Shown: positions 3,617-33,762 of the stretch, piece by piece
How the letters are laid out: each line of letters begins with the position of its first letter
Numbering within the stretch: the stretch's first letter is position 1
DNA from: a candidate division WOR-3 bacterium
Lineage (GTDB): Bacteria; SDB-A
Length of the DNA stretch: 52,244 nt
Assembly (NCBI GenBank): GCA_016934535.1
Contig: JAFGSQ010000054.1
Location: 1 to 52,244 of the forward strand
Direction of reading: 5' to 3'
Notes under the pieces: generated by a model
Seen by the model: the letters and a program-made list of their open reading frames with translations, nothing else
What the model was told of the DNA's origin: nothing
The model's database searches: none
Translations under genes and position numbers: made by a program

Positions 3617-5869
3617 TCAACGGGAACCCCATATTTTTTTCAGTTGTTCGACTGATTCTGCCATGGATTTTTTCTTTTTTTTCTTCTTTTTATCGGATTT
3701 TTTTTCAAGAGCCTTCATGCTCAGATTGATCCTTTTGAGTTCTTCGTCGACGGAGACGACTTTCACTTTCACTTTTTTTCCGACTGAAATGAATTCTTCC
3801 GGTTTCGTGACAAACGAGTTCGAGAGTTCGGATATGTGTACCAGTCCGTCTATGTGAACTCCGATATCGACGAAAACGCCGAAATTCGTGACGTTTGTGA
3901 CGACGCCGTCGAGTATCATATCGGTCCTGACTTCAGAGATGTCTGCGACTCCTTCGTTAAAAAGGAACATCTGAAAATCTTCGCGAGGATCCCTGCCGGG
4001 ATTTTTCAATTCAGTGAAAATATCAAGAACTGTCGGGAGACCGAAGGATTCCGTCGTGTACTTTTCAGGGTTGATTTTTGAAAGCAGTTCAATGTTCGCT
4101 ATGAGATCGGAAAGAGGTTTTTTGAGGTCATCTGAAATCTGATTGACAATGAAGTAGGATTCGGGATGTATGCCGGTCGCATCCAGCGGCTCGTCCCTGC
4201 CTTTGATTCTGAGAAATCCGGCGCTCTGCTGAAAAGCCCGTTCTCCGTACATTCGCACATTCATAAGATCTTTTCTGCTATTGAACGCTCCTAAATTTTT
4301 TCTGTGATCCACTATGTTTTTGGCGAGAGTTTCTCCGATTCCCGAAACATATTTCAGCAAATGGCACGATGCGATATTGAGATCGACACCAACTCTGTTG
4401 ACTACAGAGACTACTACAGAGTCGAGTTTGTTCTTCAAAAGGGTTTGATTGACGTCGTGCTGATACTGACCGACTCCAATAGCTTTGGGATCAATCTTGA
4501 CGAGTTCGGAGAGCGGGTCCTGAAAACGCCTGCCTATTGATATAGCTCCGCGGACGGTTAAATCTTTGTCGGGAAATTCTTCCCGTCCGGCTTTTGACGC
4601 GGAATAAACAGATGCGCCGGCTTCGCTTATGACCGTGACTATTATGTCTTTTCCTTCGACTGTTTTTTTTACAAGTATTTCGGTTTCTCTCGACGCGGTT
4701 CCGTTGCCGATGACGATTGCCTGAATGGAATGTTTTTCAATGCACTTCAATATTTTTTTTGATGAATCAGCCAAAGCTTTTTCGGAGCCCACCGAAAAGA
4801 ACACGAAATCTTCGGCAAGATTTCCGAGTTCGTCAATTATTGCCGTTTTACAGCCTGTTCTGTAGCCGGGATCTACGGCCATCACTTTCATGTGGCCTGC
4901 GGGAGGCGATAGAAGGAGGCTTTCAAGATTTTTTGAAAAAATCTCCACGGCTTCAACATCGGATGTCTTCTTTAGTTCAAGCCTTATGTCGAGTTCGATT
5001 GATGGCACGATGAGCCTTTTCAGAGAGTCTTCGAGCATCTTGTCCAAAAACATTCTTCTCGGATGAGAACAATCGTAGAGAAGAGTCGAAAGTTCTGAAC
5101 AGTATGAATCCTTTACGGAGGTGATTGATGTTTTGAGAACTTTTTCCCTTTCTCCTCTGGCTATGGCTAAATATCTGTGAGAAGGTATGAATTTGATCTT
5201 TTCTGTAAAATTGTAGTATTTTTCAAATTTAGAGCGTTTGTCGGCCCATCCCTCGGCGGCTGTTACAATTACGACTCCGTTTTCCCTGAGAAAATCGCGG
5301 GCTTTTTTCCTGACTTCGGAATTCTCCGAAAACTGCTCGGCGAGAATGTGACCGGCCCCTTCGAGAGCTTCTTCGGGAGTCAGTTCGAGTTTTTTTTCTT
5401 TGACATATTTCAGGGACATGTGTTTTGGCTCCCCTTGAATGTCCGGTCTCAATATGTCTTGGGAGAGGTCCAGAAGACCTTTCTCTTTGGCCATGGAGGC
5501 TTTTGTCCTGCGTTTAGGCTTGTAAGGGAGATACAAATCCTCGAGTTCGTTCTTTGAGTATACAGATTCTATTTTACTGCGGAGTTCATCCGTGAGTGAT
5601 CCCTGTTCTGAAATTGTCGTCAATATTGTCTTTTTTCTCGAGTTCAGTTCTGAAATGTAATCACAGAAATCTTTGATCTTTTGGACTACAACTTCATCAG
5701 CGCTCTGGATTTTTTCTTTCCGGTATCTCGAAATAAAAGGTACGGTCATCGAAGCGTCGAATAGCTCGATCAGATTGGCTACGGTGGTCCGTTGCACGCC
5801 GGATTCGGACACTATATAACTGATGTCCTTATCAGATATGCTGTTTTTTAAAGATGACTCGTCTTGCAT
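3617..5869 (-). CDS. tex: Tex family RNA-binding transcription accessory protein
   Basis: 750 residues, close to the usual 720-780. In order: the helical Tex N-terminal domain (about 10-190), a YqgF/RuvC-like fold starting near residue 330 (AVDPGYRTGCKTA), tandem helix-hairpin-helix motifs near 490-560 (VSGIGETLAKNIV), and a C-terminal S1 RNA-binding domain near 635-710 (GVVTNVTNFGVFVDIG). Tex homologues bind single-stranded nucleic acid and RNA polymerase and influence transcription and translation. The tail after S1 carries a run of eight lysines (KSDKKKKKKKK). It is transcribed alone from a divergent promoter region shared with the GH18 gene. Confidence 0.95.
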   Translation of the reverse strand: MQDESSLKNSISDKDISYIVSESGVQRTTVANLIELFDASMTVPFISRYRKEKIQSADEVVVQKIKDFCDYISELNSRKKTILTTISEQGSLTDELRSKIESVYSKNELEDLYLPYKPKRRTKASMAKEKGLLDLSQDILRPDIQGEPKHMSLKYVKEKKLELTPEEALEGAGHILAEQFSENSEVRKKARDFLRENGVVIVTAAEGWADKRSKFEKYYNFTEKIKFIPSHRYLAIARGEREKVLKTSITSVKDSYCSELSTLLYDCSHPRRMFLDKMLEDSLKRLIVPSIELDIRLELKKTSDVEAVEIFSKNLESLLLSPPAGHMKVMAVDPGYRTGCKTAIIDELGNLAEDFVFFSVGSEKALADSSKKILKCIEKHSIQAIVIGNGTASRETEILVKKTVEGKDIIVTVISEAGASVYSASKAGREEFPDKDLTVRGAISIGRRFQDPLSELVKIDPKAIGVGQYQHDVNQTLLKNKLDSVVVSVVNRVGVDLNIASCHLLKYVSGIGETLAKNIVDHRKNLGAFNSRKDLMNVRMYGERAFQQSAGFLRIKGRDEPLDATGIHPESYFIVNQISDDLKKPLSDLIANIELLSKINPEKYTTESFGLPTVLDIFTELKNPGRDPREDFQMFLFNEGVADISEVRTDMILDGVVTNVTNFGVFVDIGVHIDGLVHISELSNSFVTKPEEFISVGKKVKVKVVSVDEELKRINLSMKALEKKSDKKKKKKKKSMAESVEQLKKIWGSR

Positions 5870-17493: not shown

Positions 17494-18525
17494 TCAAACA
17501 CTGAAAAAGAACTCGACGACGTCTCCGTCTGACATTGTGTATTCTTTACCTTCGGATCTTACCAGATTCAGACTTTTAGCTTTTTGAAAACCGCCCGCTT
17601 TTTTAAGGTCCTCGTAATGCACCACTTGAGCTCTTATGAATCCTCTTTCTATGTCGGAATGGATTTTTCCCGCCGCCTGGGGGGCTTTTGAACCGCTTCT
17701 AGTCAGCCAGGCTCTGCTTTCTTTGGGACCTGTGGTTAAAAATGAGACAAGATCGAGCCCGTTCATGAGCCTTTTCACGAGGTCGTTCCTTCCAGACGCT
17801 CCTACACCGAAATCTTCTCTGAATTTTGCAGCTTCATCTTCGGGAAGATCGGATATTTCAAGTTCGAATTTGGAGCATATAACGACCGCAGGGATCCCTT
17901 TGTCCGTGATCATAGCTTCGATTTCATTTGATTTTTCAAGTCTTTCGTCAGAATTAATGACGGCGAAAGCTTTCAAATGAGAGACGAGGCCGATTTTTTC
18001 GGCCCAAATAAAATCCTGCGGATCGAGGGCACTTCTCAACGGTTTGTTGTTTTCAAGTAAATGAAATATTTTTTCTGACAATATTTTCTTTTCAAGGTCT
18101 TCCATGTTTGTTCTTTTGAATTTATTGTCGTTCAGTCTCAGGAGTCTTCCTTCGACAGTATGAAGATCCGAAAGAATGAGAAAAGTTTCGAGAAGGTCAA
18201 GCTCTGAAAGAGGGTCAGGAGAAGGCAGAGCGGAACCGGGCAAGGTGAAATTCCTGAGACAGTACAAAATGGCGTCCTTGCCTTTTGCCTGAGGCACAAC
18301 TTGTTTTTCAAAGAAGCTTTCGTCTTCCGCGCCGGTTTTCGATGAAGGTGTGTCAACGAGTTCAACTTTTGCATACACTTTCTTTTTCGACGAACTCATT
18401 TCAGTGAGCCAATCGACTCTTTCATCGAGAAGGTCGAGAACACCCCTCGCTATTTTTGATCCTGTCAAAAATTCAAGGAGTGTCGATTTTCCCGAACTTT
18501 TTCTACCGACTATCTGAATTTCCAA
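17494..18525 (-). CDS. YchF-like (Obg-family) P-loop GTPase/ATPase, divergent
   Basis: 343 residues, near the usual 360 of YchF. P-loop G7-RKSSGKST; the YchF-specific stretch DPLSELDLLETFLILSDLHTVE near 104-125 is recognisable; an N-x-D-E element (INSDERL) stands where YchF carries its non-canonical G4; the C-terminus (about 265-343) is a TGS-like domain. The G3 motif reads D58-TPS, not DxxG, and the P-loop has RKSS where YchF has LPNV. It starts at TTG and overlaps the preceding gene by 23 bases. As the last gene of an envelope operon its role there is unclear. A canonical ychF may exist elsewhere in the genome. Confidence 0.75.
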   Translation of the reverse strand: MEIQIVGRKSSGKSTLLEFLTGSKIARGVLDLLDERVDWLTEMSSSKKKVYAKVELVDTPSSKTGAEDESFFEKQVVPQAKGKDAILYCLRNFTLPGSALPSPDPLSELDLLETFLILSDLHTVEGRLLRLNDNKFKRTNMEDLEKKILSEKIFHLLENNKPLRSALDPQDFIWAEKIGLVSHLKAFAVINSDERLEKSNEIEAMITDKGIPAVVICSKFELEISDLPEDEAAKFREDFGVGASGRNDLVKRLMNGLDLVSFLTTGPKESRAWLTRSGSKAPQAAGKIHSDIERGFIRAQVVHYEDLKKAGGFQKAKSLNLVRSEGKEYTMSDGDVVEFFFSV

Positions 18526-19411
18526 TAAACACTCTCAGGCTTTCAAGCATATCTTCGTCGGGATTGTATGCTTCCGTAAAAAGGTTGATTTCTCTGAAAT
18601 TCCAGTTTTTTATTCCGCCGTTTTCGTCAATTTCAATATCAATCAGGCCGACAGAAGACATGTCCGTGTGAACTCTGAAATTCAATGTGTGGTTGACAAA
18701 ACTTTCCCATGTTCCGGCAAAACCGTCGAATCCGCCGATAATTATGTCTATGCCGGACACCGCATTGGCTAAAAGAGTGTCGTGCCTGAAACTCGAATGG
18801 CTGAGTGATATTACAATGTCGCAGTCGTTCAATAAAAGCTCTTCAACCGATCTTTCGACGGCGGTCGATTCGTCGAGAATTTTATACTCGTTCAAAATAC
18901 CCTGAGGTAAAAACCATTCCGCGTGACTTGAAACGTGTCCTGTCACCCCGATTCTGACGCCGTTTATATCGTATATTCTGTAAGGGTCAAAAACGAAGTT
19001 ACCCGAGCTGTCTAAAATCGAGGAAGATATAAAACCGCACGAAAGCCCGGGGGAGAGGATTTTTAAAAATTCCACACCTTTGAAAAGGTCATCAATCCCT
19101 ACCGACATTGCGTCGTATCCGATTTTATTTGAGGCGAATATCCCCGCTTTAATTTTACCTGTCGAACCGAGAGGCGAGAGTCCCCAGAAATTACCCGCGT
19201 CGAGAAGCAGATCCGGTTTTTCGAGGGCGCAAAATCCGGAAAGAGATGCCGCGCCCCCCAATGGCGGAGGGAAGGATGAGCTTATCCAAGTGGCCTCAGA
19301 AGGGAGATAACTTCCCTGAACATCCGAGGTAAAGCATATTTTTATCCGTTCAGAAAAAAGACAGTGAACAGCAACTGTAACGAAAATCAGAGACAGTTTA
19401 AGGATTCTCAT
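18503..19411 (-). CDS. Exported 5'-nucleotidase/metallophosphatase-like protein, probably catalytically dead
   Basis: 302 residues with a signal peptide (1-20) and the UshA/CD73 N-terminal metallophosphatase layout: FTSD30-V-Q32-G, LLLDAGN74F, GYDAMSVG-I106-D107, VISLSH205, GIDIIIGG. Compared with the family consensus (D-x-H-G, GD, GNH, H, GHTH), the His after Asp30 is Gln, the bridging Asp is Asn74, the catalytic Asn-His pair is Ile-Asp, and the final histidines are missing. Only Asp30 and His205 remain. The C-terminal nucleotide-binding domain of UshA is absent. It probably binds rather than cleaves. Overlaps the nuclease gene before it (14 bases) and the GTPase gene after it (23 bases). 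Confidence 0.75.
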   Translation of the reverse strand: MRILKLSLIFVTVAVHCLFSERIKICFTSDVQGSYLPSEATWISSSFPPPLGGAASLSGFCALEKPDLLLDAGNFWGLSPLGSTGKIKAGIFASNKIGYDAMSVGIDDLFKGVEFLKILSPGLSCGFISSSILDSSGNFVFDPYRIYDINGVRIGVTGHVSSHAEWFLPQGILNEYKILDESTAVERSVEELLLNDCDIVISLSHSSFRHDTLLANAVSGIDIIIGGFDGFAGTWESFVNHTLNFRVHTDMSSVGLIDIEIDENGGIKNWNFREINLFTEAYNPDEDMLESLRVFIGNSDSR

Positions 19412-19979
19412 CTGAATAGCCCTCTTCAGCGTCGAGAATGAGCTCTTCCGTACTGTGTTCCCTGATCTTGTCGTAATAGGATCTCACTTCGCGATAGAAA
19501 TCAGACGATCTTATCATGACCGATATCTCGTTGTTTCTCGCGAGTGCGTAATAAGACCAGTTGGTCGAACCGACGACGACAATTTCGTCGTCAACCAGCA
19601 GCAACTTGTCGTGACTTGTGACGTCGGGCGGGTCCCAGAGCACCTGGACTCCGCCTTCCCGGAGCAGTTCGGCCAGCTGAAGGTTCTGAAAAGTGCTTCC
19701 GAGATTCCATGAGGAGGCGTCGAGTATGATTTCCACTCTTACGCCTCTGCTTACGGCGTCGAAAAGGTCCTGATAAAGAAGTTCGTTTACTCCGTCAGGG
19801 TGAGCCGGATAAGTTCTCGCCTGATACATTATTATCAGGATCTCATTTTCTGCATTTTGAAGAATCTCGTGAAGAATCGGGTAATAATCCCTGTTAGCCA
19901 TCATGACGACTTCATTGGCTCCGAAAGCCGCCAAAGAAAAGGCTGCAGCCGAAAACAATAAGAAAAGTCCGGTTTTCAT
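19398..19979 (-). CDS. Exported phospholipase D-family nuclease (single HKD motif)
   Basis: 193 residues: signal peptide (1-20) then one PLD domain with an intact HKD motif, H123-x-K125-x4-D130, followed by GSTNWS and an acidic E151 as in the Nuc-type endonucleases. Single-HKD proteins of this size dimerise to form the active site and cut DNA or RNA non-specifically; a phospholipid substrate is possible. It is preceded by a barrel protein (gap of nine bases) and overlaps the nucleotidase-like gene, so it is firmly in the 28.8-17.5 kb operon. Location is periplasm or surface. Confidence 0.85.
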   Translation of the reverse strand: MKTGLFLLFSAAAFSLAAFGANEVVMMANRDYYPILHEILQNAENEILIIMYQARTYPAHPDGVNELLYQDLFDAVSRGVRVEIILDASSWNLGSTFQNLQLAELLREGGVQVLWDPPDVTSHDKLLLVDDEIVVVGSTNWSYYALARNNEISVMIRSSDFYREVRSYYDKIREHSTEELILDAEEGYSDENP

Positions 19980-19988
19980 GTTTTCTCC

Positions 19989-21077
19989 TCAGAGTAAATA
20001 CGTGATTCCGCAGGTCATGCCGACAGAGCTTTCTCTGACTGTAAGAACCGCGTCACCTGGTTTTGGGTAATCTCTCTGATCGTATTGAAAGGACATCGAA
20101 AAAGCGATCGGTTCGAAATCCGTCAAAAATCCTGCCGTGAAAAAAAATACGCCGGCTTGTTTCTCGAAGCAGTTTTCCTCGTAACCGCCTCCGAGAGAAA
20201 AGACGGTTCTGTTGTAAAATTTATTCTCAAGACCGAAGTAAAATGAATTGACGTCTCTGAGTGAATCATTAAGCTGACCGTAAAAATTTCTCCTGAAGTC
20301 AAAATGGATTCTCGAAGGGATGAATCCGGTGTTGCCGACTGATATTCCCAGTCCTGTTTTGAGGGGAGTGTTGGTCTCTTTGTCACTCGTCGAAAAAACA
20401 AAACCTGCCGAATAATTTCTGTGAGAGGCTTTCAAGCCGCCTTTGAAAACAAACGCGTTTTCGTCAAATTTTTCTTCTACGATAGTGTCGGTTCTTCCGG
20501 TTTCGAAAAAAATGTGTTCGTATTTTTTGTCGTAATTCAACGAGAGATAATCCACTTCGGCTCCCGCTGAAAACGCTTTTCCCGAGTAATTTGCCATAAT
20601 TCCGAATATGTTGCCGTTTCCCGACGAACTTTTCGAGATTTCGCTTACTATCTGGTAAAAAGCGTTTCTTTCGACGTATTTGTATTCGTAATTGAAGTCT
20701 GCAGACTGGACCGCAAAAATACCTGTGCCAAATTTCTGGAAATTGAAATAAATCAAAGCGGAATAAGGTGTCAGATTGATACCGCTGTTCTGAGCTATCG
20801 TGAGGCGGCCTATCCTGTTGTTGTAACTGTCGAACACTGACACGACCTCGGATTCAGTTGTATATTTCAGACCGGTGTTGACCGTAAAAGAATATCTGGC
20901 CGGCATTGTGTTGGCAGGATTTACAAGAGGATCGGACGTTATGCCTGCGTAGCCTCTTGAAGCCGTCGAGGTCATGCAGGGATATATCTGCCTGCCTGAA
21001 TTGACGTATTCGAGATATCCCGAATTGAGCAGTGCCGGGAGAGTCAACAACATTAAAAAGAAACGACTAATTTTCAT
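19989..21077 (-). CDS. Outer-membrane barrel protein, unknown function
   Basis: 362 residues with a signal peptide (about 1-19) and alternating hydrophobic/aromatic strands typical of a beta-barrel. The N-terminal TSTASRGYAGITSDPLVNPAN resembles the opening of FadL/PorV-like proteins (…D…NPA…), so it is probably a distant relative of the PorV/PorQ-like protein encoded two genes upstream. It ends TCGITYLL. The next gene (nuclease) starts nine bases after its stop. No substrate can be named. Confidence 0.65.
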   Translation of the reverse strand: MKISRFFLMLLTLPALLNSGYLEYVNSGRQIYPCMTSTASRGYAGITSDPLVNPANTMPARYSFTVNTGLKYTTESEVVSVFDSYNNRIGRLTIAQNSGINLTPYSALIYFNFQKFGTGIFAVQSADFNYEYKYVERNAFYQIVSEISKSSSGNGNIFGIMANYSGKAFSAGAEVDYLSLNYDKKYEHIFFETGRTDTIVEEKFDENAFVFKGGLKASHRNYSAGFVFSTSDKETNTPLKTGLGISVGNTGFIPSRIHFDFRRNFYGQLNDSLRDVNSFYFGLENKFYNRTVFSLGGGYEENCFEKQAGVFFFTAGFLTDFEPIAFSMSFQYDQRDYPKPGDAVLTVRESSVGMTCGITYLL

Positions 21078-21098: not shown

Positions 21099-23483
21099 CT
21101 AAAATCTGTAATCCATCAAAACAAACAGGTACAGGTTCGATGACACATCATCGAACCCGGGCCTGACCATGGGTAAATTACCGTCCAGATAAAGTTCTTC
21201 GGATCCGTAATAGGGACTGTAAAAAAGATCGTGCCTGACTTTTAACCGCACGAATATATTCTCGTTTATCCTCTGACGGGCGACGAAATACGATTTTATG
21301 CCGTGTCCGTAAAGAAAATCTATTCCCATGTCCTCGAATTCCCACATGCTCATCTCTTCTCCGTTCCAGATGTCCATTCCTCCGAGTATGGAAAATCCTT
21401 CCGAGAATTTGTGCTCGTATCTCCCGGAAAGATAATATCCGGATATCAATTCGGAACTGCCTTTTCCTTCGCGTTGCGACAGAAGAACCTGGCTCCTCGC
21501 GACTGAAAAAGAGAGATAATCGTCATTTTCAAGAAAAAACCTGAGCCTCAGCTCGGTTTCGTTTGTGACGGACGAGCTGTAGTATGATGTTTTCTGCAAT
21601 TTTTTGTTCTGCCATTTTTGCCTGACACTCAGGCTCATGGGATATGAAAATCTGTATTCTATCGTTCCCTGAGATCTGAAATTATCGAGTCCTGTCGCCA
21701 GATTTTTCCACACGTCGACATAAGCCTTTGTCACTGTCAGATTTCTTGTTATCTGATACCTGGTTTCGACGTAAAATCCTTCTTCAGCTTTCGGAACAGG
21801 ATCATATTGAATGTACGCGTAAAGCGGATTCAGAAGCCTGTACGGCTTTTCAAATTCGGTGTCCTCAAAACGTCTTTGTTCTGAGAAACCTCTCGAGAAA
21901 GGATTGTCGTAGCCCAGATCGTAATGCCTGAAGATGAAGTCGAGATAAATGAATTCTTTCTGTATACGCGAAGTCAGTATGAAAGCCTTTGTGCCGTTCT
22001 TCTGTGAAGCGTATTCTCCAGAAAAATAACAAAATCCGGCAAGAACCGTTCTCGCTGAAAGTGAATAGGCGGTTCTCTCATCACCGGATGAAGAAAGCAG
22101 GAAATTCGCATCTTCGAGATTGTCTCTGTCTCCCGGAATATCAATCAAAGATGTCTCGGGATCGAAGCACTTGTCGTATTCTATCCTGTAAACATAGCCT
22201 TCCAGAACCGTCCCGGGCATGAAGCGGTCGAATCTCAGAGAAATACCCGCTCCGCCGAGTTTTTCTTCTACTTTATCTGAATATCCGTCTGTTTTCCAGG
22301 GAAGATGAAAAAACATGACTGCCGTGTCCCCGGAATACATCAGTGCATCTCGCCGGGTGTAGCTTCCGAATACGACAGGATACACGAAATTTTTGAAATT
22401 CAGTTCAGCGGCGATTCCTCTGAAACCGTATTGTTCGTTTGGATTCAGATCGGGATAAAGTCCTCTTATTCTTTGAGTCTGTCTCGCCCTGAATTCCTCC
22501 GAGTTGTCGATGAAAAGACCCTCGGACAATGTCAGCCTGTAGTCTCCGGCTATAATTTTTTCGAGTAATCCGAAATGTTCTAAAAGCATGAAACCGGAAA
22601 ATGAATTCAGATTTCCGGCGCTTGAATTGTAACTTACACCGGCTCTGTATCTATCTGAGTATCCGCCCTTGATTAGAATCGAATGTGAAAAATTATCACT
22701 GATTTCGGAAAGTTCTTCAAGATCTGAAATATTTGATCGCCTGAGAGAATCTATCATGTTTTGAGTCCAGCCTGAGAGTTCCAGGTCCTGATAAACTGAA
22801 GAGTTTTCGTCGCCGAGAACATTTATTCTCTGTGACAGTTCGTCCATGTAACTGTTCAGGTCTCCTTCTTCATCGCGCTGGTTTTCAAGTTCCGTTTTAT
22901 ACCTTAAAATTCCCCACGGCCTGTCTTCAATCGGTTTGTCCGGCTCAAAGACATAGTATCTTATGTTCCGGTAACCGTAAGATGAAAGATTTTCTGTGTT
23001 TCTGAGTTGACCGAGATATCTGTAATCGCCCCATTTTGATCTGTGACCGACAATTGCAGCGGCGTCGACCATGGAAACGCCGTACAGAGAATTCAACTGT
23101 TGAACAGAAGCTTCGTTGAGATCGAGTGGGAAAAGAAGGAGGTTTTCCCAATAATCGATGGCTGACTTACCGGGGTCGTCTTCGGAAGCGAGTCTGTCTT
23201 TGAGCTCGTCTATTCTCAGGTTTCTCCAATCAGCGGGATCCTGAGGGGCTAAAGAAAAATTTTCGAGAATAAACACATAATTCTCAGTGTCCATTTTTCT
23301 TACGTAATAAAGATCGGTGAAAGTCCTGAAAAATCCGTGTTCGTTCCTGTATTCAATAATATTTTCAGCGACGGTGCTGTCTATGGGAAAAGACAAAAGC
23401 TCCTGAAGCGAAACAGTATTTATGTCTTTTTTTTCAGAAGCAACAGCGCTCGCGATGATGAAAAATATAGTCAGCGCAGTCAC
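21099..23483 (-). CDS. Outer-membrane protein with N-terminal helix-hairpin-helix (ComEA-like) repeats
   Basis: 794 residues, GTG start in a GTGA overlap with the preceding gene. After a signal peptide (1-16) come two HhH-type segments: about 18-78 (DINTVSLQELLSFP, then YRNEHGFFRTFTDL) and about 115-172 (LDLNEASVQQLNSLYGV, then GHRSKWGDYRYLGQL), matching the ComEA pattern. The remaining about 600 residues are aromatic-rich beta strands of a large barrel ending in FVLMDYRF. In ComEA the HhH pair binds DNA in the periplasm. Whether these bind DNA or serve as a structural plug is not known. Confidence 0.75.
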   Translation of the reverse strand: MTALTIFFIIASAVASEKKDINTVSLQELLSFPIDSTVAENIIEYRNEHGFFRTFTDLYYVRKMDTENYVFILENFSLAPQDPADWRNLRIDELKDRLASEDDPGKSAIDYWENLLLFPLDLNEASVQQLNSLYGVSMVDAAAIVGHRSKWGDYRYLGQLRNTENLSSYGYRNIRYYVFEPDKPIEDRPWGILRYKTELENQRDEEGDLNSYMDELSQRINVLGDENSSVYQDLELSGWTQNMIDSLRRSNISDLEELSEISDNFSHSILIKGGYSDRYRAGVSYNSSAGNLNSFSGFMLLEHFGLLEKIIAGDYRLTLSEGLFIDNSEEFRARQTQRIRGLYPDLNPNEQYGFRGIAAELNFKNFVYPVVFGSYTRRDALMYSGDTAVMFFHLPWKTDGYSDKVEEKLGGAGISLRFDRFMPGTVLEGYVYRIEYDKCFDPETSLIDIPGDRDNLEDANFLLSSSGDERTAYSLSARTVLAGFCYFSGEYASQKNGTKAFILTSRIQKEFIYLDFIFRHYDLGYDNPFSRGFSEQRRFEDTEFEKPYRLLNPLYAYIQYDPVPKAEEGFYVETRYQITRNLTVTKAYVDVWKNLATGLDNFRSQGTIEYRFSYPMSLSVRQKWQNKKLQKTSYYSSSVTNETELRLRFFLENDDYLSFSVARSQVLLSQREGKGSSELISGYYLSGRYEHKFSEGFSILGGMDIWNGEEMSMWEFEDMGIDFLYGHGIKSYFVARQRINENIFVRLKVRHDLFYSPYYGSEELYLDGNLPMVRPGFDDVSSNLYLFVLMDYRF

Positions 23484-24337
23484 AGCGAATAACCTACTGA
23501 CAGTACGTGGGTAATGGGGAGTACGGAGTGTTGTATTACGGCGTAATCGAGAGCGAAGCCGGTGTAATTGAGAGAAAATCCGGCTGAAAACCTGACCGGT
23601 TCGGTTTGAATACCCGCCCTCAGCGTCAGATATTCTGAAATGCCGTATTCCTGTCCGAACGCAATCCTCAGAGGGAAACCGATTTCCTGCCTGAAATCCA
23701 GGGAAGTGTTTATGTTGTCTGCGGGTTGAAATGATACTCCGGCTCTTATTACGCGGGGAAGATGTTCGGGAGATTCTTTCCCAACGGAAGGAGAATTGAT
23801 GTTTTTCATTGAAAAACCGATTTTCCAGACTCCGTAAAGAGTTCCCAGTACACCCGCATCAAGACCTATTGCGTATGCAGACCCGAATCTTTCCTGTTTC
23901 AGGGAATACGTGTTTACTGAGACACCGGACGAAAAAAACCGGTTCATAATCACTGCGTGAGTGAAAGAAACATAAAGCTCTCTGTGGAGTTCGGCGTCGG
24001 AAGATATGAGAGAACTGTCCGAACTTCTGTAGTCGCCTTTGACAGAAAGCCACCTGGCGTTCAGTGCGGTCGATCCGAGAGTGTTCTGAAAAGAAATGGA
24101 AGCGCCGGCGGAGTTTATCAATCCGAAAGGCTTTTTATAGAATGCCTTGAGCTGAACTCCGCTCAGGAATGCTATCCCAGCAGGATTGTATACCGCTTCG
24201 AGAGGATCGCGGGGGCATGACGTGACGGCTTCCGCCATCCCTTCGGCTCTCGGAGAAGTCTCGACTTCTTCGAAAACCGGCATGAGAAGTGTCGGAAGAA
24301 AAATCGCGAATAAAAGCAGGCAAGTGAATTTTTTCAT
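23480..24337 (-). CDS. PorV/PorQ-family outer-membrane protein
   Basis: 285 residues with a signal peptide (1-19), then the family's opening RAEGMAEAVTSCPRDPLEAVYNPAGIA (split here: ARG-MAEA region and DP-x6-NPAG at about 30-57) and strands of a FadL-like 14-strand barrel to the end at VLSVGYSL. In Bacteroidetes, PorV shuttles type IX cargo to the sortase and PorQ is part of the same machinery. Three proteins in this window carry sorting-type C-termini, one encoded directly upstream. It follows that gene by three bases and overlaps the HhH-barrel gene by four. Confidence 0.75.
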   Translation of the reverse strand: MKKFTCLLLFAIFLPTLLMPVFEEVETSPRAEGMAEAVTSCPRDPLEAVYNPAGIAFLSGVQLKAFYKKPFGLINSAGASISFQNTLGSTALNARWLSVKGDYRSSDSSLISSDAELHRELYVSFTHAVIMNRFFSSGVSVNTYSLKQERFGSAYAIGLDAGVLGTLYGVWKIGFSMKNINSPSVGKESPEHLPRVIRAGVSFQPADNINTSLDFRQEIGFPLRIAFGQEYGISEYLTLRAGIQTEPVRFSAGFSLNYTGFALDYAVIQHSVLPITHVLSVGYSL

Positions 24338-24340
24338 TTT

Positions 24341-27298
24341 TCACTCCAAAGGCGTTCCGACCACGAGAGGCCGGTTAATTGAAGTTTCTGTACCGTCCGG
24401 GGATTTGAAGCTGTAATTTATAATATAGACTCCTATACCCGCGGAAATTCCGTACTCAGTGATGCCGTCCCAGATTATCAGCTGAGGACCGCTGGAGGCG
24501 TTTTCAAGAAGCGTTTTTACAAGTCTTCCCTCCATGTCGAATATTCTCAGCGCAATTCTTGATCCTAAAGGAGAATTTAAAAACAAATTGAGATTTTCTC
24601 CTATAGAAAAAGAGACGGGATTCGGATAGACAGTGATGTTCTGTGATTCTGAAACCGGTCCGAAATCGACAGGTTGAAGATCCGTCTGGAATCTCGGCAA
24701 AAGCTGATATCCCGTGGCCGGAGGTTCATCGTATGTGTACTGGCCTACGACGCCGTATATGCTTAACAATTGACCGGGTTTTATGAATGAAAGGTCAAGC
24801 GCCGCGGCGTCGTTCACTCTGACGGTTAGCAGTGTCCTTCCATTCCTGACGGTGAAATCACTGCCTGTGCCGCTTTGCTGTGGGTAAGTCGTAATGACCG
24901 AATTGGATACTTTTACGAGTCTTCCTTCGACGATTTCGTGCAATCCCTCGTTTTCTTTGAGCGCTAAAGTGTCAGGTAAAGGTCTTTCCAGTCCCACTAA
25001 TTCTACTGAATCCGGAGCCGAATAGACAAGTTCAGTCACTCCGTTGTATTCAGTGATCACACCCCTCGCCACGACTTCGGCACCGAGAACAAAAGAAGTG
25101 TTGCCTTTGTCCTGTGAAGAAAAAACGTTTATACCGCCTGTCGAATCCTGTATCCAGAAAGAAGTTTTGGTGGTTGATCCGTTGAAAATTGCGGAGGGAC
25201 CTGTGACTACTCCCGAAACAGCGACGTAACGGCCCTGCATCGAGGAATTGTATCCTCCGGAATCCGGAGATTGTGCAAGAGCTATCGGCAGGACTGCCCA
25301 GATTTCCGGAGAGAGGTATGTTTCCTGAAGGAATTGTGCCTGTTCAACCGATGTTTTTGTTTTCAATGTAAATTTTCCGAAAGAATCCGGAGCCGTGACG
25401 TTTCTGAAAACTATTTCGCATGAACTGTCCGGCGGCAGGTGGAGGTTCCCGACGAACACAACATACCTTCTCGACGAGCCGTTTCCAGCGACGGAGTCGA
25501 CAACGGCAGGCTGACTTATGAGGACATCGGAGGTGTTCCCGCTCCAATGCCATGATGTGTCGGTAAATTCGAAAGACGCGCAGTTCAACGAGTCAATCTC
25601 GGACGTAAGTATTACGGTTATCTCACCGATCGATGAAACAGGGACGGAAGAGAGAAATGAATTAGCAAAACCGCTTCCGTCTCCGCCTTTGCGTATATCG
25701 TAAATGCCTCTCGGCATTAATTGATAACCCGTCGTGAACGGGGATGAAGGGCAGTACTGGGATATCACACCCGTAATTGAAAAACCGTCCGGCGGCAAAG
25801 GTTTTCCCGCGATATCACCGGTCTCTATCCTCAGTTCGAAACTTCCGGTTGGATCCTGTATAGTCATGTTCTGGCCTGTTTGCGGAAACACGGGTGCAGT
25901 TCTCAAAAGATTGTCGATTCTCACGAGTTTTCCTTCAAAATTTTCCACTCCTCCCGAACCTTCAAGAGAGAGGGTCGAACAGGTTGCTGTGACCGGATCA
26001 CGCGGCGTGCAGGTAAAAGGTCCCGACAATACAGTGGACGGCGACAGTTCAGTCAAGCCGTTCCATTGTGTCATTGTTCCCTGAAAAACCGCGCTGTCAC
26101 CTATGGAAAGACCGCCCCCGGGATTGTAAACGCAGACGCCCGCCGTGTTGTCCCAGAGGAAATACTGACCTCCTAATTCTCCGGCAACGGTCATTATTCC
26201 GGTTATTTTGACGGTTTCTCCGAGAAGGAGCGGAACGCCCTGAGAATTATTCTGTCTTAAAAGAGATATCGGCACCGTTCCGTCTAATCTGCTGACAAGG
26301 ATTTCCGGAAAATCCGAAACAGGGGATAGGGAAGTGTCCGATTGGGTTCCCGTGTACACGGCGAGTGTTTCTACTCCCGAAAGCCGAGGGGTCAAGTCGG
26401 CAAGGTTTAGATGCCCACCCGCGAGAGAAGTGATCCCTGCGTTTTCAATGTATAATGTGTCACCGGTTATTGTCAAAGTGGCGTTGAGAAATCCTGCTCC
26501 CGACAGGGTGTACGAACCCGGAAACTCGAAATTTTCCGGGATCAAGAGGATAATGCGGTTGATCTCGCCGAAATCGACAGAAAAAGATACGACAACATTT
26601 TCCGGAACTCCTTCAGTCAGCTGATTTGGATTAACGGTGACTCTTCCAATTCCGGAAAAAGAACCGTATATATCGAAGTCGCCGCGCGGTTCGAGTTTAA
26701 AATCGTCGTATGAATAATTAAGTATTCCGACCAATGCGGCGAGAGTGTCACCCAGAGAGGGCATCGTGTAAGAAGCTTCGTCATTGACTCTGCATGGACC
26801 GGAACCGTCGTTTATTTCCCATTCGCCGTAGCCTAGATTGACGTCAGTAACCACCGGATTCATGATTCCGACCAGCACTCCTTCGTACATTTCGGCCGTA
26901 TCCGGATTACTCGTCGCCAGAGCGCTCGTTGTCACTAAAGTTGGCGCTGGAATGTCACAATCCGTCGATAGTACTGTCAGCGAGCTGAGATATCCAATCT
27001 CTGTCTTGCCGTAGTATTCTGAGACAGTGCCGGTAACTTTTATCGAGTCTCCCGTTCTCACAGTATAGTAGCTCGTGTAAATCAAAATTCCGCTGTAAGG
27101 ACCGACTGAATCCTGAATGTATATCGGATCGTTTGTAAAAGTGCCGTTTTGGACCGTCACTACACCTGAAGTAGTCACCACAGTTCCTATGTACTGCCCC
27201 GTAGTGTCAGATTGTATGTCTCTGATCCTCACATCAGCCGTTAAAGTGAAAACCGGCAAAATGAGAAAAATTAAAAAAAGACGGCGTTTATCAGCCAT
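24341..27298 (-). CDS. Large secreted OB-like repeat protein with C-terminal sorting-type domain
   Basis: 985 residues, signal peptide (1-21), strong AAGGAGG before the ATG. At least three modules repeat a pair of signatures: a W/Y-I-Q-D-S-x-G-like strand (IYIQDSVG, FLWDNTAG, FWIQDSTG) and V-x-G-x-x-x-E-Y-N-G-x-T-E-L (TVSEYYGKTEI, TMTQWNGLTEL, VITEYNGVTEL), many followed by PRGDFDI/PRGIYDI. This is the pattern of DUF5689/YhcR-type OB-fold domains, often attached to secreted nucleases, although no nuclease domain is seen. Residues about 890-985 (FDMEGRLVK, then GVYIINY) match a FlgD/T9SS-type C-terminal domain. The neighbouring PorV-like gene fits surface export. Confidence 0.75.
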   Translation of the reverse strand: MADKRRLFLIFLILPVFTLTADVRIRDIQSDTTGQYIGTVVTTSGVVTVQNGTFTNDPIYIQDSVGPYSGILIYTSYYTVRTGDSIKVTGTVSEYYGKTEIGYLSSLTVLSTDCDIPAPTLVTTSALATSNPDTAEMYEGVLVGIMNPVVTDVNLGYGEWEINDGSGPCRVNDEASYTMPSLGDTLAALVGILNYSYDDFKLEPRGDFDIYGSFSGIGRVTVNPNQLTEGVPENVVVSFSVDFGEINRIILLIPENFEFPGSYTLSGAGFLNATLTITGDTLYIENAGITSLAGGHLNLADLTPRLSGVETLAVYTGTQSDTSLSPVSDFPEILVSRLDGTVPISLLRQNNSQGVPLLLGETVKITGIMTVAGELGGQYFLWDNTAGVCVYNPGGGLSIGDSAVFQGTMTQWNGLTELSPSTVLSGPFTCTPRDPVTATCSTLSLEGSGGVENFEGKLVRIDNLLRTAPVFPQTGQNMTIQDPTGSFELRIETGDIAGKPLPPDGFSITGVISQYCPSSPFTTGYQLMPRGIYDIRKGGDGSGFANSFLSSVPVSSIGEITVILTSEIDSLNCASFEFTDTSWHWSGNTSDVLISQPAVVDSVAGNGSSRRYVVFVGNLHLPPDSSCEIVFRNVTAPDSFGKFTLKTKTSVEQAQFLQETYLSPEIWAVLPIALAQSPDSGGYNSSMQGRYVAVSGVVTGPSAIFNGSTTKTSFWIQDSTGGINVFSSQDKGNTSFVLGAEVVARGVITEYNGVTELVYSAPDSVELVGLERPLPDTLALKENEGLHEIVEGRLVKVSNSVITTYPQQSGTGSDFTVRNGRTLLTVRVNDAAALDLSFIKPGQLLSIYGVVGQYTYDEPPATGYQLLPRFQTDLQPVDFGPVSESQNITVYPNPVSFSIGENLNLFLNSPLGSRIALRIFDMEGRLVKTLLENASSGPQLIIWDGITEYGISAGIGVYIINYSFKSPDGTETSINRPLVVGTPLE

Positions 27299-28954: not shown

Positions 28955-29347
28955 ATGGAAAATCCTAAATTCCAGATAACAGAAGACTTTCTGAAAGAAA
29001 ATTCAAAAAAAATCAGCGATGAAGACCTTAAGAGGGTCGTCGAGAAAGCCGACGAAATTGAAACAAGGGTAAAAAAAAGCAACATCCTTTCACGTTTTTA
29101 CGACGACATAAAAATGTCTCTATCGATGATTAAAGACTACACGGCGGGTAAATACAAAAAGATTCCGTATTGGGCGCTCTCTTCAATTGCTTTTACGGTT
29201 TTATACATAATAAATCCTGCGGACCTTTTTGCCGATCCTCTGCCGGTTTTAGGTCAGATAGACGACGCCGCACTGATAGGAATATGCCTTTACATGATAG
29301 AAAAGGATTTAAGAAAATACAGGGACTGGAAAACCGGTCTTAAATGA
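28955..29347 (+). CDS. DUF1232 (YkvA-like) membrane protein
   Basis: 130 residues. The DUF1232 core is near residues 60-110: YKKIPYWALSSIAFTVLYIINPADLFAD, then PVLGQIDDAALIG. It has two hydrophobic segments and a charged helical N-terminus. Function of the family is unknown. It overlaps the next gene by four bases (ATGA), so it is translated together with a giant kinase-GGDEF protein and may act as its membrane partner (inference). Confidence 0.85.
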   Translation: MENPKFQITEDFLKENSKKISDEDLKRVVEKADEIETRVKKSNILSRFYDDIKMSLSMIKDYTAGKYKKIPYWALSSIAFTVLYIINPADLFADPLPVLGQIDDAALIGICLYMIEKDLRKYRDWKTGLK

Positions 29348-32300
29348 AGTTTATCAACCGCAGGTACAGAATAGACGGCGAGATAGGCCAGGGAGCCTAC
29401 GGTGTTATTTACAAAGTGACCGATCTTTGGGCGGGTAGAAAAAACCCGAAAATCCTGAAGATTTTCAACACGGACAAACTCGGGAATCAGGATCTAGAGG
29501 GTTTCAAAAACGAATATTTTTACACAAAGAACATCGACATACCCTGCGCTGTAAAAACCTATTCCTTCGAAAAGATTTACAACATCGACGGATTTTCATT
29601 TTACGGAAATTATTATTTCTACACAATGAATTTCGTGAGAGGCGAAAAAATTTCAACTTTTTCCGCATCGTCTAAAAAAGACAGAAAAATACTCGCCGAA
29701 AAAATCCTGTTCTCTTTAAAATGGCTTCACGCAAACGGATACGGTCACGGCGACCTGCATCCTGACAACATCCTGCTGGACGAAAACGATCAAATTGTAT
29801 TTCTCGACTTCATACAGCCGAAAAACATAGAACTTAACAAAGAAAACCTGACCGATTTCGTTATGGAAATAACAGGGATCAAACTTGATCCTGATAAAGA
29901 AAGTTTTCGACACGTAACTCCCAAAAGCGTCTTTGAAATCCTCAAAAAGAATTACAAACTCAACATGGGAACTCTTCGGTATGTCAGAAAAACGTTTGAC
30001 ACGGCTTTTAATCGTTCTGAAAAAGACAAAGGCAGATGTTTCAGAATAAATGCAGTCAATTATAAGAAATCTTATTACGATATTGTAAAGGATTATTTTA
30101 AATCATACGCTGAAATTCACGATTTTTTCTTCATTGATCTCGATCTTTCAAAAGATCCCTTGGCTTATTTCAGCGAATTCAGAGAACAGATGATTAAATC
30201 CCTTGATTTGAGGGGTATAAAATCCAGTGAAATAACAAAAGACGAAGCCATACTAAACGGCGAATCCAAAGCGCTGGAGCACATATTGTCGTCCGTCGTA
30301 AAACTTTCCTATTACGGTAAAGTCGCCATGAGCATAGAAGGGGATGATTGCGATCAGAAAATTACAAATGCCGTCGACAGGATTATGAGAGGTTTCAACG
30401 GAGAAAACCTGTTGATGTTTACCTGTGTTCCAACAAAATCCGATCAGGAAAGTCACTCGTATGATGTTTTTGATCCGCCTGATAAAGACGAATACGCGGA
30501 CGAAATTTCCGGCAAAATCAAAGACCTTTTCTACAACATTGACACCGGCAATCTGACGGACTATATGAGAAAAAACGGGAACTATGACCTTTGCGGTGTC
30601 CTTGAAAGAGTCCTGAAATCACCTGGCGGAATGGACAGAAACGGGAAACTCCTGATTCTTGGCAACAGAATAAGAAAGCACCTGAATGACGAATACAACG
30701 GAAAATTTCTCTCTGTAAAAAAACAGAAAGAATATGAAGAATTTTTCGCTTTTTTTGACCTTCTTATCAAGCCGGCAAATATTTCATTGTTAAAAATGTT
30801 TTTATCGGAAAGCTCTGAAAAAAACACGGAGAGGGTGATAGGGGAGCTATTAAATTCAGGTATCGTATCAAGAAACAGCCCAAACTCTCTGAATTATTTC
30901 GATGAAAATACAGAAAACAGAGTCGGTTCAATCATAAGAAACTCTGAATTAAAAAAACGTGCTGCAGAACGAATAATCGAATTTCTCGAAGGGAAAGAAC
31001 TGACGGTTGAAGAAGAAAAACTTCTGCTCAGTTTATATCTTTCATCGGGTTTAATTAATAAATATGCGTCTTATCTATATCACAATTTCATCGAGCCTTT
31101 CAGGACTTCGACAAACCTGGCAAAAATCACGGGCGATTTTTTTGAAAAAATCAACATTCGATCCAAGTTAAAAGAATCGGACATTAAAGATCCCGTGTTG
31201 AAAGAGGCGGTTGAATACGCTCAGATAAAAACAGCAAATCAGGTGGATATAGTCGAAAGGAACCGAAAACTTAATAATTTTATCCTGAAAAGAAAACCTT
31301 CAAAAATAATTCTTATTTACGTTTATTTCGATTTTTTCAATCAGTTCCTAAACGCCGGCGACATGCAGAATTCGAACACTTTTTACACAAAAATACTCCA
31401 GGAAAAAGAATATTTCAATGAATTTCAAAAACTTGCTTTTCTGATATACGAAGCTAAATTTTTCATTCTTAACTCTGATTTTTTAAAAGCTCTCTATGAT
31501 TTGAGGATATTTTTCAAACAAATCGTCAATAAAAAACACCGAAAATACGCTTATTTGCATTTGAATGCTCTTGAGACCCTTTCGGATTGCTATCACAATG
31601 GCGGTCAAATGATAAAATTCGTCAACACTCTCAAGATATATATGGTCAAAGCTGAAGAGATTTCAACGGTTTCAAAAGATTTCAGCTATCTATTTTCCTC
31701 GAACACAAATTTCGCTTTTTATCACTATAAGTACGGCAATCCTCAAATAGCCAAAAAACACTTTCAAATAGCTCTCGATATCGCTAAAAAAAATGGCGAT
31801 TACAACGATTTGATTCTCGCGTGCAACAATCTGGCTGCAATAGAAAACGACACTATAATGACACTTGCGTATTTAAAAGACGCGTTAAAATATTCAAAAC
31901 TTCTGGGCGAGAACATATATATATATCTTGTTCTTTCCAACATACTTTCATTGAACATTGAACCCTTGGAAAAATACAAATTTCTTGAACAAAATTATTC
32001 CCTTGTCAAAAGATGTTACAAAGACCATGAAATTTCAGTAAAGTTCTGCCTGAACATCTTTTATTCAATCATAAGCATATTGTTGTCGCTGAATAAAAAA
32101 GATGAACTTGTTTCATTTTTCGACCATCTGAAAAAGACTGAAATTGAAAAAAATAAAATGCCCGACGCATATCTTTTTAAAAAAATCGTGGCTTTGTTTT
32201 ATGAAATTAACGTAAATGGATATAAAAACGAGTATTATAAAATGTTTTATGATATTCTGGACGAATTTAAAAATATAAATAACTATGATTTAATTCTTTA

Positions 32301-33762
32301 CATGTATATTAACGATCTATTTAATCTTATTGACGACAGACAGATCCAGTTTATTTCAAAAAAACTTATAGCATCATTCAAAGACAAGACAACTGGTGAT
32401 GAAATTAACGCCATCAGGATATTTGTAAAATTAAGATCGTCAAAAATTGATTCCAAGGCGATAATAAGATACATTGAAAGATACGTATCTGGCATATCAA
32501 ACAGGAATTACATAACATACAGATTAATTTTTTATCTGGCCAGCGCTTATAAAAAAACGGGAAATGTTGAGTATAAAAACCTTTTATCTTACACAGCAAG
32601 TGAGCTTTCATTTGAAATGTCGCAATATTCAAATAAACGTTTTTTTAAAAAGACTCACTACGGCAAAGCGCTTGAAATTTTCAGGAAGGATTTTCCTTCT
32701 GAGTATAAACTTCTTATAGAAAAAAGAAAAAAAATTCATTTTACAAAGACAGACATGAACGAAGTCAACAGCCAACTTCATTTGAATTACTTTTCAGAAA
32801 GAGAAACTCTCTTGAAAAAAATACTTTCAACTTTGCTGGAGACAATGAATTACGACAGAGGAGCATTTTTTTCGTCTTTGCACAGCAAGTCGCCGGAATT
32901 AGTGGTTTACAGAAAGAAATATTATTATTCGGACGATGAGATGTTTTTTCTTGACAGGATTCCGCTTGAAAAAGCAGGAGAAATAAACATAAATGAAATA
33001 TATGATCCAAACCTTTCTGTTAAATCATACATTACGATACCCGTTGTAAATGAATTTTATTACAAACGATTCATGCATCACTTCGTTGCAAAAACAAAAA
33101 AATCCAAGTCATCTCTTGGGAGATCAGCTCTGTATGAAAGAGAATTACTGAACGGAGTCTTGTATTTAGACAAGAAAAACGATCTTAGAACTGATTACGA
33201 CATGGAATATCTCGGATTACTGTCTTTTACGATATCTCAATACTGGAATTACAGCACTGCAGAAAAGCTGTTTATGAGAGACGGACTGACAAAACTGTAT
33301 CTGAGAAACGTATTTTTAAACAAATTGAGAGAAATGATACACGGAGAAAAGGATTCAGTAGATAAACTGACCCTTATTATGGTGGATATTGACAATTTCA
33401 AGAACGTCAATGATTTACTCGGACATGCCAGGGGTGATTATGTTTTGAAAAAACTCGCCGAAATAATGAAAAAGAAAATTAGATCTTCCGATATTCTTGG
33501 AAGATATGGCGGAGAAGAGTTTCTGATTGCTTTGCCAAATACAGATATTTACAACGGTAAAATTGTAGCCGATAAAGTACGAGAAGCGGTCGAAAGGTCA
33601 AAAATCCTCGGAGATGTCATGAATTTGACTGTCAGCTGTGGAGTAGCTGAGTATCCAAAAGATTCTAACTGGATAGAAGAATTGATTGAGAAAACTGACA
33701 AATATCTTATAAAAGCAAAACTATTAGGAAAAAACAGCGTAATATCGTCACTTGATGAGTAA
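29344..33762 (+). CDS. Ser/Thr protein kinase-TPR-GGDEF multidomain signalling protein
   Basis: 1472 residues. N-terminal kinase (about 8-170): glycine loop GQGAYG 15-20, ATP Lys39 (KILKIF), Glu57 in the C-helix, catalytic loop HGDLHPDN 135-142 (Asp137, Asn142) and metal Asp155 in LDFI instead of DFG. Residues about 245-400 look like a decayed ATPase with no P-loop. The long helical middle (about 560-1130) contains TPR-like helices (for example YGNPQIAKKHFQIALDIA). A GAF-like part precedes a C-terminal GGDEF domain with GGEEF 1389-1393 and an inhibitory-site RSSD five residues upstream (1380-1383). This predicts c-di-GMP synthesis under product inhibition. No TM; the gene is visibly AT-rich, more so in its second half. 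Confidence 0.88.
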   Translation: MKFINRRYRIDGEIGQGAYGVIYKVTDLWAGRKNPKILKIFNTDKLGNQDLEGFKNEYFYTKNIDIPCAVKTYSFEKIYNIDGFSFYGNYYFYTMNFVRGEKISTFSASSKKDRKILAEKILFSLKWLHANGYGHGDLHPDNILLDENDQIVFLDFIQPKNIELNKENLTDFVMEITGIKLDPDKESFRHVTPKSVFEILKKNYKLNMGTLRYVRKTFDTAFNRSEKDKGRCFRINAVNYKKSYYDIVKDYFKSYAEIHDFFFIDLDLSKDPLAYFSEFREQMIKSLDLRGIKSSEITKDEAILNGESKALEHILSSVVKLSYYGKVAMSIEGDDCDQKITNAVDRIMRGFNGENLLMFTCVPTKSDQESHSYDVFDPPDKDEYADEISGKIKDLFYNIDTGNLTDYMRKNGNYDLCGVLERVLKSPGGMDRNGKLLILGNRIRKHLNDEYNGKFLSVKKQKEYEEFFAFFDLLIKPANISLLKMFLSESSEKNTERVIGELLNSGIVSRNSPNSLNYFDENTENRVGSIIRNSELKKRAAERIIEFLEGKELTVEEEKLLLSLYLSSGLINKYASYLYHNFIEPFRTSTNLAKITGDFFEKINIRSKLKESDIKDPVLKEAVEYAQIKTANQVDIVERNRKLNNFILKRKPSKIILIYVYFDFFNQFLNAGDMQNSNTFYTKILQEKEYFNEFQKLAFLIYEAKFFILNSDFLKALYDLRIFFKQIVNKKHRKYAYLHLNALETLSDCYHNGGQMIKFVNTLKIYMVKAEEISTVSKDFSYLFSSNTNFAFYHYKYGNPQIAKKHFQIALDIAKKNGDYNDLILACNNLAAIENDTIMTLAYLKDALKYSKLLGENIYIYLVLSNILSLNIEPLEKYKFLEQNYSLVKRCYKDHEISVKFCLNIFYSIISILLSLNKKDELVSFFDHLKKTEIEKNKMPDAYLFKKIVALFYEINVNGYKNEYYKMFYDILDEFKNINNYDLILYMYINDLFNLIDDRQIQFISKKLIASFKDKTTGDEINAIRIFVKLRSSKIDSKAIIRYIERYVSGISNRNYITYRLIFYLASAYKKTGNVEYKNLLSYTASELSFEMSQYSNKRFFKKTHYGKALEIFRKDFPSEYKLLIEKRKKIHFTKTDMNEVNSQLHLNYFSERETLLKKILSTLLETMNYDRGAFFSSLHSKSPELVVYRKKYYYSDDEMFFLDRIPLEKAGEININEIYDPNLSVKSYITIPVVNEFYYKRFMHHFVAKTKKSKSSLGRSALYERELLNGVLYLDKKNDLRTDYDMEYLGLLSFTISQYWNYSTAEKLFMRDGLTKLYLRNVFLNKLREMIHGEKDSVDKLTLIMVDIDNFKNVNDLLGHARGDYVLKKLAEIMKKKIRSSDILGRYGGEEFLIALPNTDIYNGKIVADKVREAVERSKILGDVMNLTVSCGVAEYPKDSNWIEELIEKTDKYLIKAKLLGKNSVISSLDE

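Follow-up and report, generated by a model that had tools for sequence, protein, structure and literature searches.

Is a protein that joins the fold of the competence DNA receptor ComEA to an outer-membrane barrel a DNA-binding pore, or does the fold serve some other purpose there? The question is raised by the window analysed here, a 52,244-nucleotide stretch of DNA from a candidate division WOR-3 bacterium. The initial annotation placed two ComEA-like HhH segments behind the signal sequence of a 794-residue barrel protein and proposed that the fusion could make a DNA-selective pore or a plug. As described below, the architecture holds and DNA binding finds no support.

Architecture of the HhH-barrel

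The gene lies within a dense run of same-strand genes from approximately 28.8 to 17.5 kb, with gaps of -41 to +21 bp, and its GTG start overlaps the stop of an upstream PorV-like gene by 4 bp (GTGA). The features of its product, the central protein of this study and hereafter the HhH-barrel, are as follows:

21099..23483, minus strand: HhH-barrel protein, 794 aa, GTG start
23436..23483, minus strand: signal-peptide-like hydrophobic start, residues 1-16 (sequence, model)
23256..23429, minus strand: HhH module 1, residues 19-76, two hairpins without G-h-G (Pfam, AlphaFold, alignment)
22950..23129, minus strand: HhH module 2, residues 119-178, two hairpins without G-h-G (Pfam, AlphaFold, alignment)
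21102..22919, minus strand: barrel, residues 189-794, about 24 strands (AlphaFold; outside Pfam and NCBIfam barrel families)
22692..22883, minus strand: helical insert in extracellular loop 1, residues 201-264, little conserved across the family
22425..22526, minus strand: conserved extracellular loop, residues 320-353 (loop conservation)
21786..21920, minus strand: most conserved extracellular loop, residues 522-566, motif DNPxxRxF (loop conservation)

The Pfam domain HHH_3 matches two stretches of the protein (E-value 3.8e-19, 69 bits against a cut-off of 27), which score 41.8 and 35.2 bits when taken separately in the genome scan; the match is real and not a product of chance. NCBIfam ComEA models match below their cut-offs, and a profile of 73 homologues finds solved ComEA structures with E-values of 6e-11 and 1.8e-9; the ComEA entries compared here are PDB 8dfk and 8dss. 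The strongest HHH_3 match in the window belongs to another ORF (3617-5869), which was set aside as an ordinary housekeeping protein, Tex-like by sequence inspection.

A structure prediction had been proposed as the check on the N-terminal segments, and the AlphaFold2 model built with the 73 homologues (mean pLDDT 89.1, pTM 0.84) gives them HhH folds. The helices of module 1 (26-30, 36-49, 55-60, 66-75) form the four-helix pattern of the ComEA domain, which returns in module 2 (127-131, 138-151, 157-162, 168-174). These are followed by about 24 strands, counted by hand, up to residue 793, and the C-terminus (...LMDYRF) resembles the end signal of an outer-membrane protein. By definition, ComEA is small, is secreted or anchored in the membrane and has a single HHH_3 at its C-terminus; the protein, with its 794 residues, N-terminal HhH modules and barrel, is therefore not a ComEA.

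Neither Pfam nor NCBIfam has a barrel model that matches the barrel region. The Pfam scan shows the protein to lack the secretin domain PF00263, and neither the plug nor the TonB-dependent barrel domain of SusC/TonB-dependent receptors has a match. Foldseek returned generic large barrels only, with the FimD usher at the top along with TonB receptors and porins (query-normalised TM at most 0.32). Such low-scoring, generic matches are in keeping with a nutrient porin for an unrelated solute in which the HhH fold is a structural plug and nothing else. However, this is very improbable given the recurring cassette of nucleic-acid-type domains described below and the conservation of two long extracellular loops above the strands, a feature unlike ordinary porins. 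These loops, 320-353 and 522-566, have conservation values of 2.54 and 2.65 as against 1.99 for the average strand, suggesting either a conserved surface partner or a constriction of the lumen.

Whether the HhH pair sits in the lumen or in the periplasm had also been asked. This is answered in part, for the side of the membrane: as the odd-numbered loops of the AlphaFold model are long (up to 64 residues) and the even-numbered turns short (2-8 residues), the HhH domain is placed on the periplasmic side.

Hairpins of the HhH modules

Two HhH motifs make up each HhH segment, and the HhH-barrel accordingly has four hairpins. A G-h-G hairpin offers backbone amides to the DNA phosphate. It is the element that takes part in DNA binding in HhH proteins of the ERCC1/XPF type (PMC3905867). 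Among the 73 homologues of the HhH-barrel, the second Gly of this motif is present in 0, 1, 0 and 1 sequences for hairpins 1 to 4 respectively, being mostly replaced in all four by S, T, D or P. Position 140 in module 2 is Asp in 73 of 73, and the HhH domain is acidic, with a charge of -10 in the window protein and a family median of -5. By contrast, all eight control ComEA-type domains from outside the family keep the second Gly in both hairpins and read GIG, including two from the window's own genome. Shorter HhH-barrels with one module, found in several genomes, have hairpins altered in the same manner when read by eye. Judged by alignment, the DNA-gripping hairpins are lost throughout the HhH-barrel family.

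In a by-eye alignment, Asp140 also occupies the position of K164 in Bacillus subtilis ComEA. The loss of this Lys was dropped as evidence against DNA binding, the control ComEA-type domains lacking it too.

A ComEA-type HhH domain is able to bind protein, as with Pasteurella ComE1, which binds fibronectin (PMC2601033). With this precedent, and with G-h-G lost, Asp140 fixed and the domain acidic, DNA binding by the modules is unlikely on sequence grounds, and this part of the initial annotation is not supported. An HhH fold weakly matched by the family profile is that of PsbU, the 12 kDa extrinsic protein of photosystem II (8iwh_U, E-value 0.12), which is not fused to a barrel, unlike the HhH-barrel. 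The role of PsbU is one of protein binding and not DNA binding. With ComEA the HhH-barrel shares the HHH_3 fold and a location on the non-cytoplasmic side; it differs in its two tandem modules, its fusion to a barrel, its lost G-h-G and its acidity, and its genome has a separate ComEA. A link to DNA is still plausible through the neighbouring gene products (the OB-fold/lamin-tail/DUF5689 protein, the nucleotidase and the PLD nuclease) as opposed to the HhH itself.

A conserved outer-membrane cassette

The neighbours of the HhH-barrel gene in the window are:

24341..27298, minus strand: secreted DUF5689/OB-fold-repeat protein with a type IX-like sorting tail, 985 aa (Pfam, NCBIfam)
23480..24337, minus strand: PorV-like barrel, 285 aa (NCBIfam PorV_fam, 55.7 bits, below the curated 90)
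19989..21077, minus strand: FadL-superfamily barrel, 362 aa (closest solved structures FadL, TodX and Bacteroidota BamG)
19398..19979, minus strand: PLD-family nuclease-like protein with intact HxK(x)4D, 193 aa (Pfam, NCBIfam, motif)
18503..19411, minus strand: degenerate 5'-nucleotidase-like metallophosphoesterase, metal ligands lost, 302 aa (NCBIfam, alignment)

Further along, at 29344-33762, the window encodes a protein of 1472 aa that has a protein-kinase domain at its N-terminus and a GGDEF domain at its C-terminus.

In a scan of 84,980 species genomes, 195 relatives of the HhH-barrel came up and 80 of them were kept; the scan used one conserved barrel motif and the census is therefore biased towards carriers of that motif. 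The relatives come from WOR-3, Edwardsbacteria, Cloacimonadota, Calditrichota, Eisenbacteria, Krumholzibacteriia, Zixibacteria, Gemmatimonadota, Neomarinimicrobiota, Latescibacterota and Coatesbacteria, a family spread, by sequence similarity, across FCB-type phyla. One relative lies on a record titled Desulfuromonas sp. SDB (LKUE01000268.1), which carries the same operon with a barrel identity of 50% and falls in the window's family; its name is probably wrong for this reason.

The conserved gene order is OB/lamin-tail/DUF5689 protein, PorV-like barrel, HhH-barrel, FadL-like barrel and nucleotidase-like protein, and the HhH-barrel is the central barrel of this conserved outer-membrane cassette. 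At loci with a long enough flank, the PorV-like gene is found upstream in 56 of 65 and the OB-type gene in 41 of 57, while downstream the FadL-like gene is present in 61 of 72 and the nucleotidase-like gene in 47 of 61. Apart from the five cassette families, no gene cluster recurs in more than 10 of the 81 loci. Cloacimonadota loci have a barrel-barrel-nucleotidase arrangement without the adjacent PorV/OB pair, which counts against the reading preferred below. The PorV-like gene adjoins several short HhH-barrels as well as the long ones. In the literature searched, which took in few subscription journals, no barrel-fused HhH family or cassette of this type is described. The cassette, made up of known domain types in a new arrangement, is apparently undescribed and common to many little-studied phyla, and it appears to be made for handling nucleic acids at the cell surface.

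Pfam domains identified in the OB-type proteins are LTD (30/43), OB-fold (27/43), FlgD_ig (17/43) and DUF5689 (11/43). OB-folds bind other ligands too, which counts against a nucleic-acid role. The profile of these proteins matches the N-terminal part of solved proteins of the EEP-nuclease family. Nevertheless, the Pfam scan found no nuclease domain in the OB/lamin-tail proteins, a further point against the preferred reading. The extracellular nuclease ExeM also has LTD and OB-fold regions, the latter being crucial for its activity (PMC6085458). The FadL-like neighbour is modelled with a pLDDT of 90.4.

The nucleotidase family profile matches the nucleotidase 3ivd, UshA and CD73. Scoring of the seven positions of the two-metal ligands (DxH, D, NH, HxH) showed that all seven are kept in 40 of 52 family members and only one in the window protein. 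Ligands are also lost in four other copies that adjoin a PLD gene and, in part or whole, in seven further copies without one. The PLD gene adjoins a degenerate nucleotidase in the window (18503-19979) and in all four homologous loci that have it, suggesting from gene content that one enzyme may have replaced the other. At five loci (L073, L080, L094, L108, L112) nucleotidase-like copies lack the metal ligands and no PLD gene was detected. Copies of this kind suggest a possible non-enzymatic role in their lineages, and as the ligands are lost in several lineages without the PLD gene, nucleotidase catalysis is not essential to the cassette.

Type IX secretion, competence genes and possible function

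SprA is encoded in 45 of 47 cassette genomes. In a sample of 193 genomes it was found in 22 of 23 with a full-length barrel and 32 of 170 without (Fisher p=3e-13), an association confounded by shared ancestry: the genomes are not independent, and it therefore means that the family lives in type IX-bearing lineages, not that the two are mechanistically linked. Small membrane-anchored ComEA-like HhH genes adjoin sprA in three distant genomes (L142:9717-10124, L148:10196-10591, L153:6135-6665).

ComEC occurs in 44 of 47 cassette genomes. In the sample it is present in 22 of 23 genomes with the barrel and 157 of 170 without, and its co-occurrence was rejected as a test for competence owing to this near-universal baseline (179/193). 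A secretin is present in 47 of 47 cassette genomes, the window's genome having a separate one. A canonical ComEA of 178 aa is encoded on contig C42 of this genome beside a pilB-type ATPase, as judged by sequence inspection; together with the secretin, these genes make it probable that the bacterium has a standard competence route separate from the cassette.

Two other HhH proteins of the genome should be mentioned. On contig C9 (L046:8855-9880, minus strand), a protein of 341 aa combines a PorV-like barrel at its N-terminus with a C-terminal HhH of ComEA type in which both hairpins are still GIG, making it a second and different HhH-barrel fusion. Contig C49 (L152:6670-8433, minus strand) has the gene for a short HhH-barrel-like protein (587 aa) whose one HhH module is altered; the gene for a lamin-tail protein is found on the other strand, at a distance of two genes.

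In Riemerella, transformation has been linked by a transposon screen to two proteins, one with DUF5689 and one with HhH (PMC8459023). As in the cassette, an HhH protein (R. anatipestifer RA0C_RS02645) and a DUF5689 surface protein (RA0C_RS04920) are thus tied to one process, but their locus numbers are distant, unlike the cassette genes. RA0C_RS02645, set beside the HhH-barrel by description, is predicted to be periplasmic with HhH at residues 236-301 and is not reported as a barrel. This precedent for the DUF5689 neighbour, together with the ComEA-type fold, the usher-like barrel size (FimD at low TM) and the presence of ComEC, would speak for an outer-membrane conduit for transforming DNA with the HhH pair gripping DNA at the pore mouth, a reading that comes near to the initial annotation. 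Such a conduit is nonetheless quite improbable, as G-h-G is gone from four hairpins of an acidic domain with Asp140 invariant, ComEC does not track the barrel and a separate set of ComEA, pilB and secretin is encoded in the genome.

The loci for DNA degradation in Ca. Izemoplasmatales (PMC8289736) likewise have, among DNA-catabolism genes, a large secreted lamin-tail protein that binds nucleic acid. This is a different phylum, without an outer membrane; its large protein has a nuclease domain, and the available part of that report describes no HhH-barrel. The Riemerella and Izemoplasmatales precedents are related to the cassette, and neither is the same system.

The neighbouring barrels belong to the same FadL/PorV superfamily as Bacteroidota BamG and PorV, which act with BAM and type IX respectively. 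A type IX-linked assembly or anchoring platform is an alternative, in which the HhH- and FadL-like barrels display the OB/lamin-tail protein or help to build complex outer-membrane proteins, with no import of nucleic acid. It would account for the PorV-like gene beside long and short HhH-barrels, the SprA association, BamG as the best solved match of the FadL-like profile and the protein binding known for ComEA-type HhH. But the domain theme of the cassette is nucleic acid or nucleotide (OB, LTD, 5'-nucleotidase, PLD), and the likeness to BamG is at the level of fold and profile; among the BAM subunits described in the accessible part of that literature there is no HhH-barrel. We consider this platform unlikely.

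The reading we prefer, tentatively and as possible rather than probable, is a surface complex, assembled by type IX, that acquires nucleic acids or nucleotides and in which the HhH pair serves for docking or gating. The OB/lamin-tail protein would be exported through SprA and kept on the cell surface by the PorV-like barrel, and it would capture extracellular nucleic acid or its fragments and dock on the conserved outer loops of the HhH-barrel. The latter would be the entry path, its periplasmic HhH pair would dock or gate by binding a protein partner and not DNA, and the nucleotidase, or the PLD nuclease in the window's lineage, would process the incoming material. We favour scavenging of nutrients or phosphate over transformation, since a separate, canonical ComEA is encoded beside pilB in this genome, along with a secretin and ComEC. 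The broader proposal of an FCB-wide, type IX-assembled machine for nucleic-acid acquisition, whose ComEA-like fold lost DNA binding and was taken into service in the periplasm as gate or docking module for a pore of about 24 strands, is more doubtful.

The label 'ComEA family DNA-binding' is probably misleading for barrel-fused HhH proteins. How DNA and nucleotides cross the outer membrane in double-membraned bacteria without well-studied uptake systems, especially candidate phyla, is largely unknown, and the cassette, with its type IX export, OB-fold/lamin-tail surface proteins, large barrel and nucleotidases, offers a concrete and testable candidate for such uptake.
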